Below, piece after piece: positions 16,462 to 38,202 of a DNA stretch of 64,000 nt. Both the position numbers and the translations under genes were made by a program. The number at the start of each line of letters is the position of its first letter. The first letter of the stretch is position 1. Under the pieces are notes generated by a model. The model saw nothing but the letters and a program-made list of their open reading frames with translations. It was not told where the DNA came from and searched no databases. Source of the stretch: Hujiaoplasma nucleasis (GTDB taxonomy: Bacteria; Bacillota_I; Bacilli_A; Izemoplasmatales; Hujiaoplasmataceae); contig NZ_CP051151.1 in NCBI RefSeq assembly GCF_013745115.1, positions 1-64,000 of the forward strand. The letters run 5' to 3'.

Positions 16462-16773
16462 CTAATTCAAATAAAGATTAAACAATCTTTGTATTTTTTC
16501 AAAATCAATAAATCTAGATTCTCTTAATATTTCTTTTGATTCACTAAAAACTATAATGGTAGGGACTGTAAAGACTAAATGTTGTCCCTGAAATAATTCG
16601 ACATCTTCTAGATAAAGTTGGTAGGAAGGTATGCTGGGATAATCTTCCATAAAAACTTTAAGTTTTTCTGAAAGAGGTTTACACACATTACAGGTTTTTG
16701 TTTTAGCAATAACAACACATAGTTCTACCTTAATGACTTCTTGAAGTTCTTCATAGTTTTTAATAGTTTCCAT
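16462..16773 (-). CDS. Thioredoxin-fold protein with CxxC
   Basis: 103 aa. C28-N-V-C31 is the redox motif, and FTVPTIIVF carries the conserved cis-proline before strand 4. The active site lacks the WCGPC of ordinary thioredoxin, so it belongs to the thioredoxin-like (YdfQ/YtpP-type) group. Probable thiol-disulfide exchange or electron supply to neighbouring peroxidases, by inference. SD GAGGTGG precedes ATG 16773; -10 TATAAT at 16809-16804 on the minus strand. First gene of a two-gene unit with the antiporter. Confidence 0.8.
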   Translation of the reverse strand: METIKNYEELQEVIKVELCVVIAKTKTCNVCKPLSEKLKVFMEDYPSIPSYQLYLEDVELFQGQHLVFTVPTIIVFSESKEILRESRFIDFEKIQRLFNLYLN

Positions 16774-16847: not shown

Positions 16848-16883
16848 AATAATATTGACATATGTCAATATTATTTATATAAT
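16848..16883 (+). promoter_or_regulatory. Consensus promoter embedded in a 28-bp perfect palindrome
   Basis: -35 TTGACA (16855-16860), 17-bp spacer and -10 TATAAT (16878-16883) match the sigma-A consensus exactly. Positions 16848-16875 form a perfect palindrome with half AATAATATTGACAT. The dyad covers the -35 and most of the spacer, so a dimeric repressor bound there would block RNA polymerase. The first gene downstream encodes a DNA-binding protein, making autoregulation plausible. Confidence 0.8.
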
Positions 16884-16900
16884 TAAAGAGGAGATAACTA

Positions 16901-17263
16901 ATGTCAAGACCTAATAAACCAAGAATTGTATGTGGCTTACCTGAATATCAAATGTTTGGGCCTAAAGGTAGAAAAGCTAATCAACTTGAAAAAGTTGTTT
17001 TATTGATTGATGAGTATGAAGTCATTCGACTTATAGATCATTTAAAGATGAATCAGGAAGAAGCTGCGACTATGTTGGGTGTAGCTAGAACTACAGTACA
17101 AAGAATTTACACGATAGCTAGAAGTAAAATTGCAGATGCTATAGTTAGTGGAAAGATTTTAATGATTGAAGGTGGAGATTACATTCTTTGTGAAGATGAT
17201 TGTAAGGAATGTTTGGAACCTTTAAGAAGACATAGAAGACACCATTTCGGAGGCAAACAATGA
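16901..17263 (+). CDS. DUF134/UPF0251 helix-turn-helix protein
   Basis: 120 aa of the UPF0251 (DUF134) family. RPNKPRIVCGLPEYQMFGP is the family opening; residues about 48-80 (MNQEEAATMLGVARTTVQRIYTIA) form a sigma-70 region-4-like helix-turn-helix. Four Cys (one near the N-terminus and C-E-D-D-C-K-E-C late) and a basic, His-containing tail (RRHRRHH) suggest metal or Fe-S sensing. It is followed with a 4-bp overlap by a NifX-like gene, a common pairing. The 28-bp operator upstream is its obvious candidate site. Ligand unknown. Confidence 0.87.
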   Translation: MSRPNKPRIVCGLPEYQMFGPKGRKANQLEKVVLLIDEYEVIRLIDHLKMNQEEAATMLGVARTTVQRIYTIARSKIADAIVSGKILMIEGGDYILCEDDCKECLEPLRRHRRHHFGGKQ

Positions 17264-17618: not shown

Positions 17619-17652
17619 ATGTTAGACAATTCTAACATTATATGTTAGAATT
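17619..17652. promoter_or_regulatory. Three-half-site operator candidate before peroxiredoxin gene
   Basis: ATGTTAGA (17619-17626), its inverse TCTAACAT (17631-17638) after CAAT, and a second direct copy ATGTTAGA (17642-17649) 23 bp on. The arrangement forward-inverse-forward looks like cooperative repressor binding. Related half-sites occur at 13514 and 27267. Confidence 0.5.
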
Positions 17653-17689
17653 AATATATAAAAATATAAAATAATTATGGAGGTTTTTT

Positions 17690-18373
17690 ATGGAAGAACA
17701 AGTTAAAGAGTTTTACAAAATGCCTTTAATAGGCGATTTGGCGCCAAGCTTTACTGCTACAACAACACAGGGTGTGATTAATTTTCCTAAGGATTATGAA
17801 GGTAAGTGGGTAATTTTGTTTTCTCACCCAGCAGATTTCACTCCTGTATGTACTACTGAATTCATGACCTTTACAAGAATGCTTGATGAATTCAAAGCCT
17901 TAAATACTGAACTTATCGGTTTGTCAGTTGATTCGTTGTACGCTCATATTGCTTGGCTAAGAAGAATTAACGAATTAGAGTGGAACGGAATGAAGAATTT
18001 AGATGTTACATTCCCATTGATTGAAGATATTAAAATGGATGTAGCCAATAAATTCGGTATGATTCAACCTGGACAATCTTCAACTCAAGCTGTAAGAGCA
18101 GTTTTTGTGATTGATCCAAAAGGAGTCATTAGAACGATTCTATATTATCCACTTTCAACCGGAAGAAACTTTGATGAAATTAAACGTATAATTCAAGCCC
18201 TACAAAAAGCTGACAAAGATAATGTTGCTACTCCAGCTGATTGGAGACCAGGGGATGATGTGATTGTTCCAACTGCTGGATCATGTGGTACAGCTAAAGA
18301 AAGAATGGAATCAAAGGACGATGACACATATTGTTTAGACTGGTTTATGTGTTTTAAAAAAGAAAAAAGATAA
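17690..18373 (+). CDS. Peroxiredoxin, Prx6 (1-Cys-type) family with extra C-terminal cysteines
   Basis: 227 aa. The peroxidatic Cys is C54 in PADFTPVCTTEF, after HPADFTP, typical of Prx6/AhpC-TSA. The extended C-terminal domain fits the Prx6 branch. Three more cysteines lie near the end (C199, C215, C221); the last two are six apart, as in archaeal Prx6 proteins that form a disulfide there (C207/C213 in the Aeropyrum enzyme). It would reduce H2O2 or organic peroxides. SD GGAGG precedes ATG 17690 and an operator-like repeat lies upstream. Monocistronic. Confidence 0.93.
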   Translation: MEEQVKEFYKMPLIGDLAPSFTATTTQGVINFPKDYEGKWVILFSHPADFTPVCTTEFMTFTRMLDEFKALNTELIGLSVDSLYAHIAWLRRINELEWNGMKNLDVTFPLIEDIKMDVANKFGMIQPGQSSTQAVRAVFVIDPKGVIRTILYYPLSTGRNFDEIKRIIQALQKADKDNVATPADWRPGDDVIVPTAGSCGTAKERMESKDDDTYCLDWFMCFKKEKR

Positions 18374-37285: not shown

Positions 37286-38178
37286 AAAAAGTCGATGAAT
37301 TACTAAATAACTTTAATGCTAAGATAGATTATGATGGCTTAATAGATCGTTTTATGAATGAGCCTACAACAAAAAAATTTATACTTGACCATGATTTAAC
37401 GAGAGATCAAATTATTAAATCAGCTCATATCTTCCTAACTTATATAGAAGAGTACAAAACATGTAATGATTGTCATAGCCTTGAAGATTGCAAACTACAA
37501 ACAAAGGGATTTACGCCACATTTAACTTACCACAATAACCGAATTCAAATAGAATATGAAAATTGCCGATACAATCAAAATCGGTCTGCTAATAATATTT
37601 CAGCCATGTATATACCAAAAAGAATATTTGAAGCTTCATTAGAGGACATGGATTTAATAGGGGAAAGCAGAAAATTAATCCACGCATACATGCATAAATT
37701 TTTAAAAAATGATTTGAAAGAAAATTTTATGAAAGGTATGTATATTTCTGGAAAATATGGATCTGGTAAAACATATGTATTGGCTGCTTTAGCCAATGAA
37801 TTGGCTAAACAAGGTAAAAAAATTATTTTTGCTTATTATCCAGATTTAGTAAGGGAATTGAAATCTTCTATTGGCAACGGTGATTTAGAAGAAAAAATCC
37901 GTCAATTAAAGGTTATTGAAATATTGTTTTTAGATGATATAGGTGGAGAATACTTTTCAAAATTTATAAGAGATGAAGTCTTGGGTTCAATTTTACAACA
38001 TCGATTACTTGATAATAAACCAACATTCTTTTCATCTAATTTTCCGATTCAAGAGTTGGTTAATGTTATAAAAGAAAGTAATACCCAGCAAGAAACTGTA
38101 TCTGCATTCAGAATTATTCAAAGAATCAAAAGAATGACTGAAGAATTTATTTTGAAAGATATGCCACGAATTTCTTGA
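37282..38178 (+). CDS. dnaI: Helicase loader DnaI
   Basis: 298 aa. N-terminal domain with C-x-x-C...C...C cluster (CNDCHSLEDC, ENCRYNQ), the zinc-binding helicase-interaction module; C-terminal AAA+ ATPase with Walker A GKYGSGKT and Walker B LFLDDIGGE. Loads the replicative helicase DnaC. Its TGA stop is part of the thrS promoter -35 box (TTGACA, 38175-38180). Confidence 0.94.
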   Translation: MKKVDELLNNFNAKIDYDGLIDRFMNEPTTKKFILDHDLTRDQIIKSAHIFLTYIEEYKTCNDCHSLEDCKLQTKGFTPHLTYHNNRIQIEYENCRYNQNRSANNISAMYIPKRIFEASLEDMDLIGESRKLIHAYMHKFLKNDLKENFMKGMYISGKYGSGKTYVLAALANELAKQGKKIIFAYYPDLVRELKSSIGNGDLEEKIRQLKVIEILFLDDIGGEYFSKFIRDEVLGSILQHRLLDNKPTFFSSNFPIQELVNVIKESNTQQETVSAFRIIQRIKRMTEEFILKDMPRIS

Positions 38179-38202
38179 CAATTTCATAAACAATCGTATA
38201 AT
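38175..38202 (+). promoter_or_regulatory. thrS promoter
   Basis: TTGACA (38175-38180), 16-bp spacer, TATAAT (38197-38202). The -35 overlaps the dnaI stop codon. Confidence 0.8.

Follow-up and report, generated by a model that had tools for sequence, protein, structure and literature searches.

The locus at 16848–16883 of the Hujiaoplasma nucleasis genome raises the question of why an exact consensus promoter should be overlapped by a perfect palindrome, and of which protein would read it. In the reading that we consider very probable, the DUF134 protein encoded downstream uses the palindrome as its operator and is a sigma-region-4-like autorepressor that controls NifX/MinD/Mrp (“orange protein”-like) operons. 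The window referred to below is the whole stretch of DNA that was analysed, 64 kb in length.

The palindrome, its promoter and the two genes

The preliminary description had reported a 28-bp perfect palindrome fused to a perfect consensus promoter, and both features were recovered exactly (Table 1). The two arms of the dyad, AATAATATTGACAT and ATGTCAATATTATT, match perfectly with zero gap, and the palindrome overlaps an exact TTGACA-17-TATAAT promoter (16855–16883) such that the centre of the core lies about −29 relative to the predicted transcription start. No other even perfect palindrome with arms of at least 9 bp is present in the window. The chance of arms of at least 12 bp is 0.017 per first-order random window, and arms of at least 13 bp were seen in none of 60 simulated windows of this kind. 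Exact matches to TTGACA-16/18-TATAAT are also in excess (two found, 0.28 expected per window), the other one being a TTGACA-16-TATAAT promoter at 38175–38202. Further CATATG dyads are found in the window at 2191, 20860, 47175 and 56829, the last of which appears to lie within coding sequence.

Table 1. Coordinates of the features discussed; the last row is numbered on the genome
Feature	Position	Strand	Basis or remark
Perfect palindrome, 28 bp, AATAATATTGACATATGTCAATATTATT	16848..16875	.	computed
Operator core TTGACATATGTCAA, predicted DUF134 binding site	16855..16868	.	two-site genome match, kept in relatives
TTGACA −35 element, left half of operator	16855..16860	+	sequence
TATAAT −10 element, 17 bp after −35	16878..16883	+	sequence
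Ribosome binding site AAAGAGGAG	16885..16893	+	sequence
DUF134 (UPF0251/COG1342) helix-turn-helix protein, 120 aa, predicted autorepressor	16901..17263	+	Pfam, alignments, model
NifX/MTH1175-like Nitro_FeMo-Co protein, 112 aa	17260..17598	+	Pfam, PDB search
Second TTGACATATGTCAA copy	1541935		13 bp after TTGACA-16-TATAAT, directly before the operon's ribosome binding site

The gene identities first proposed, DUF134 followed by a NifX-like protein, were confirmed by Pfam, with matches to PF02001 (DUF134; E 1.6e-25, 89.9 bits for a cut-off of 27) and to PF02579 (Nitro_FeMo-Co; E 7e-22, 77.9 bits for a cut-off of 26.3) that place both proteins within their families. The two genes share 4 bp (ATGA), and this DUF134 gene is the only one in the source genome. 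A PDB search returned MTH1175 (1eo1) and others as solved relatives of the NifX-like protein; for DUF134, no structure was found in the PDB by sequence search. The window protein conforms to the residues conserved in alignments of DUF134 members (E40, R43, D46, R63, T65 and an R-P start). Its helix-turn-helix covers approximately residues 52–71, with the recognition helix VARTTVQRIY, and C11, C97, C101 and C104 are candidate metal or cluster ligands. The likeness to sigma factors is one of resemblance only, the score against PF04545 (sigma-70 region 4) being 21.1 bits, below the cut-off of 24.1. The best Foldseek matches of a structural model of moderate confidence (pLDDT 70) are sigma −35-binding domains, with E values of 0.07 and worse.

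Several neighbouring features were also observed. A conserved peroxiredoxin gene of the 1-Cys type (17690–18373) comes after DUF134-NifX in most family genomes. Between it and the NifX gene lies an inverted repeat, TTCTAACATTATATGTTAGAA (17620–17660), which is at best partly retained in two relatives (L024, L039). Divergent from DUF134, at 16462–16773 on the minus strand, a gene whose position is kept within the genus encodes a small thioredoxin-like protein with a KTCNVCKP motif and without a Pfam match.

Occurrence of the dyad in the genome, in relatives and across bacteria

The core TTGACATATGTCAA matches exactly at two places only in the 1,808,583 bp (1.81 Mb) genome, the looser pattern TGRCATATGYCA matches the same two places only, and both copies precede Nitro_FeMo-Co operons. 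The operon behind the second site encodes a DUF5320 protein, a Nitro_FeMo-Co protein, two CbiA/MinD-type ATPases, both carrying 4Fe-4S ferredoxin domains according to Pfam, and a small membrane protein. Since this second copy precedes the DUF5320-NifX-like-ATPase operon, a two-operon regulon is predicted for the DUF134 protein. The locus had first been described as a self-contained sensor circuit. DUF134 repressing its own NifX-linked promoter through the dyad is indeed supported, whereas self-containment had to be given up, because the second operon shares the operator, as seen in the source genome and in the relatives examined.

The comparison of orthologous DUF134-NifX pairs that had been suggested at the outset revealed the dyad before such pairs across the family as well as in other phyla. 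Of some 30 distinct DUF134 genes at the family level, about 22 carry the core, with at most three mismatches, 46–59 bp before the start codon. In most of the remaining relatives, DUF134 lies behind a DUF5320 gene heading the same operon, and the dyad stands before DUF5320. The outer AT-rich arms of the 28-bp dyad are confined to the 16848 locus; the relatives and the second genomic site keep the inner 14–16 bp only. The early notion of the dyad as an operator thus stands for its inner 14 bp and not for its full length, and the operator is taken here as 14 bp, the 28-bp version being rejected. Remote copies of the motif precede DUF5320-NifX-MinD-MinD operons in six family genomes (L101-L105, L116), occur as a tandem pair before NifX-MinD-MinD-NifX in L107, and precede a Mrp-type gene and NifX in L108; the remote match in L106 lies at an unrelated place. 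The scan of genome contigs yielded one close relative.

Among the Bacilli, 33 of 53 genomes with DUF134 and 34 of 243 without it contain the pattern WTGRCATATGYCAW (odds ratio 10, P 3e-12, over 296 genomes with relatedness ignored); the reversed pattern, used as a control, has 13 sites in total vs 86. Of the 44 sites located in DUF134-bearing Bacilli genomes, 26 are at most 700 bp from the DUF134 gene. Within the first set of loci, 13 of 16 sites from DUF134-bearing genomes precede DUF134, DUF5320, NifX or Mrp-type genes. All 13 sites of this set from DUF134-lacking genomes are without NifX, DUF5320 or MinD nearby, and lie mostly inside ORFs; overall, inspection covered about half of the matches in DUF134-lacking genomes.

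The association extends over Bacilli, Clostridia, Negativicutes and Gammaproteobacteria. When 86 DUF134 genes were clustered into 47 below 60% identity, 41 of these 47 had a CATATG dyad at most 450 bp upstream, compared with 1.9 expected and a maximum of 9 in shuffles. Upstream of DUF134, CATATG heads the 64 palindromic hexamers and, within 120 bp, all hexamers. Plasmid records contributed DUF134 genes from Clostridia (Peptoclostridium, Subdoligranulum, Pusillibacter, Roseburia), Negativicutes (Selenomonas) and Gammaproteobacteria (Citrobacter, Klebsiella, Morganella, Proteus, Aeromonas, Salinivibrio), with CATATG dyads directly upstream in all but Salinivibrio and one Parabacteroides gene. 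In Salinivibrio (L144 2811-3459), DUF134 and NifX are separated by a VapBC toxin-antitoxin pair, and a tandem dyad pair is found directly before the NifX gene. Selenomonas has an additional site before a Mrp gene. A clear site is absent upstream of DUF134 in Parabacteroides, L049 and L054, and sites are degenerate in L011, L013, L022 and before the Salinivibrio DUF134 gene itself. Viral contigs yielded one distant DUF134 relative, with sites; in phages, no DUF134 relatives were found.

Two further observations concern these distant groups. Plasmids of Klebsiella, Citrobacter, Aeromonas, Morganella and Proteus (L138-L142, L144, L145) carry DUF134-NifX with paired xxGCATATGCxx sites, next to varying combinations of genes for a PaaI thioesterase, Dps, an ArsR-family protein, an FAD oxidoreductase and TauE or SLAC1, a neighbourhood suggestive of an island for sulfur or oxidative stress. 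A DUF134 subgroup with a CPxCGxxH tail and a VSRQTFQLI helix (L047, L049, L053, L056) has, in three of its four members, TTAGCATATGCyAA sites 360–455 bp upstream and not at its own start.

The outer operator bases vary with the DUF134 clade, as TTGACATATGTCAA, TGTGCATATGCACA, TGAACATATGTTCA or wwwGCATATGC, the clade of the window protein having TTGA around the CATATG centre. Most single DUF134 proteins whose recognition helix is [VI]ARTT have TTGACATATGTCAA sites. For DUF134-NifX fusions with VSRAT[IV]QRLL the site is TGTGCATATGCACA in 8/10 of the group, two ISRTTVQRIYAS proteins have TGAACATATGTTCA sites, and VSRQT proteins have GCATATGC-centred sites. Recognition-helix residues are correlated with operator bases far more strongly than under permutation. 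Residues elsewhere are as well, so that much of this covariation reflects clade structure, and shared ancestry therefore accounts for part of it. No single residue determines the operator type; position 64 was considered as a specificity residue but found no support, as Roseburia pairs SRAT with TTGACATATGTCAA.

A different, co-occurring regulator could in principle bind the dyad, DUF134 being just one of its targets. Binding by DUF134 is indeed a prediction, and in two genomes (G009, G298) the operator stands before NifX operons with no DUF134 detected. Both of these genomes are incomplete, however, and such a regulator would have to follow the DUF134 gene over four bacterial classes whose regulators otherwise differ, precede lone fused DUF134-NifX genes, and change its site with the DUF134 clade, which makes this explanation unlikely.

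Site position in promoters and its bearing on function

Promoters were assigned to 95 sites by eye-independent rules, the Gammaproteobacteria assignments resting on weak promoters, and two positions dominate. In 48/95 cases the site is centred at −28/−29 and supplies the −35 element with its TTGACA; in 40/95 it lies just after the −10 element, at about −1 to +24 and mostly −1 to +11. Tandem pairs occupy both positions, 28–39 bp apart. No site is centred upstream of −35, as would be usual for classical activators. Repression is suggested by this arrangement, since the sites lie where a bound protein would block the polymerase.

Some MerR-like regulators activate from between the −35 and −10 elements. 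With this precedent, DUF134 could be imagined to bind the dyad as an activator or dual regulator, for example when it bears a cluster, and the tandem sites at −28 and +4 to +11 would permit more than plain blocking. This is nevertheless improbable, because the sites overlie the −35 element or the transcription start with none centred further upstream, and the near-consensus promoters with their 16–18 bp spacers need no help. That the palindrome arose by chance or has a structural role, without any regulator (an AT-rich cruciform, or a −35 element with a fortuitous mirror copy) is extremely unlikely: TTGACA alone could be selected for promoter strength and the outer arms are not conserved, but the right half TGTCAA is kept though required by no promoter element, the same dyad recurs after −10, where it is not a −35, and its conservation is far above that in shuffles.

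Proposed autorepression and its relation to known systems

What is observed is the sites, with their conservation, fixed promoter position, covariation and co-occurrence with DUF134; binding by DUF134, repression as its effect, and the signal are inferred. DUF134 would bind the CATATG-centred dyad, presumably as a dimer. As the −35 hexamer forms the left operator half, the bound protein would exclude RNA polymerase, and a very strong promoter would be silenced by its own product (negative autoregulation). The DUF5320-NifX-like-ATPase operon would also be repressed through the identical site just past its −10 element. A change in cell state may then inactivate DUF134 and turn both operons on. 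This state may be how much iron, metal sulfide or Fe-S cluster is available, sensed by way of the conserved cysteines or the NifX partner. C11, C97 and a C-terminal cysteine occur together in 52/86 DUF134 proteins, and 12 fused proteins, in which all three are missing, have a NifX domain instead. Our best guess is thus a cluster, metal or sulfide signal, in view of the cysteine set or fused NifX domain in these proteins and of the role of the genes presumed to be regulated in handling clusters of Fe-S or metal.

It would be attractive to see in DUF134 a repressor for which the −35 hexamer serves as a half-site. Its extension to the whole family is more tentative: DUF134 proteins would possibly be bacteria-wide sigma-region-4-like repressors whose operators are two facing −35-like elements, and which would compete directly with sigma. 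They would sense iron-sulfur or metal-sulfide clusters through their cysteines or through a NifX domain, fused or as a partner, a NifX-type cluster carrier thereby becoming the sensor arm of a transcription circuit. With region 4 of sigma-70/ECF factors, DUF134 shares the helix-turn-helix sequence, the predicted fold and the −35-like TTGACA half-site. In contrast, DUF134 is a stand-alone protein with beta elements and a Cys tail, and its target is a dyad, not a single hexamer.

The autoregulated helix-turn-helix repressor is a well-known kind of system, and the likeness to small repressors of this type lies in the regulator gene, the operator dyad over its own promoter and the small linked regulon. 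The present case differs in that the −35 hexamer is itself one of the two operator halves, in belonging to an uncharacterised family, and in an operator common to a second metal-cluster operon. DUF134 occurs in bacteria and archaea. A literature search, with subscription journals and regulon databases outside its scope, returned neither function nor operator for DUF134/UPF0251/COG1342, in agreement with the initial statement that no operator is established. The family-wide operator, its merger with the −35 element and the NifX/MinD/Mrp regulon appear to be new.

The closest known gene sets are the orange protein (ORP) operons of Desulfovibrio vulgaris, which are described as sigma-54 dependent, with a cognate regulator and IHF (PMC6345978). 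These ORP complex operons have in common with the operon at 1541935 a Nitro_FeMo-Co protein and two MinD-type ATPases with two 4Fe-4S ferredoxin motifs (PMC6345978). The latter operon has an ORP-type gene set (NifX-like protein plus two ferredoxin-containing MinD ATPases) and matches the Desulfovibrio set in part; MrpORP is found in the Peptoclostridium copy. Control differs from that in Desulfovibrio, with sigma-70-type promoters and the DUF134 operator. Neither of the two promoters here is of the sigma-54 type with a DVU2106-type activator, both having TTGACA/TATAAT.

If this reading is right, DUF134 would at once acquire a function, an operator and a regulon, together with a binding code specific to each clade. 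The predicted code is directly testable at the bench with short oligonucleotides, over a range that extends from Bacilli to Klebsiella plasmids. A dedicated regulator would be gained for the NifX/MinD/Mrp (ORP-like) cluster-handling genes, which are poorly understood, and the physiological signal of their operons would be opened to experiment.
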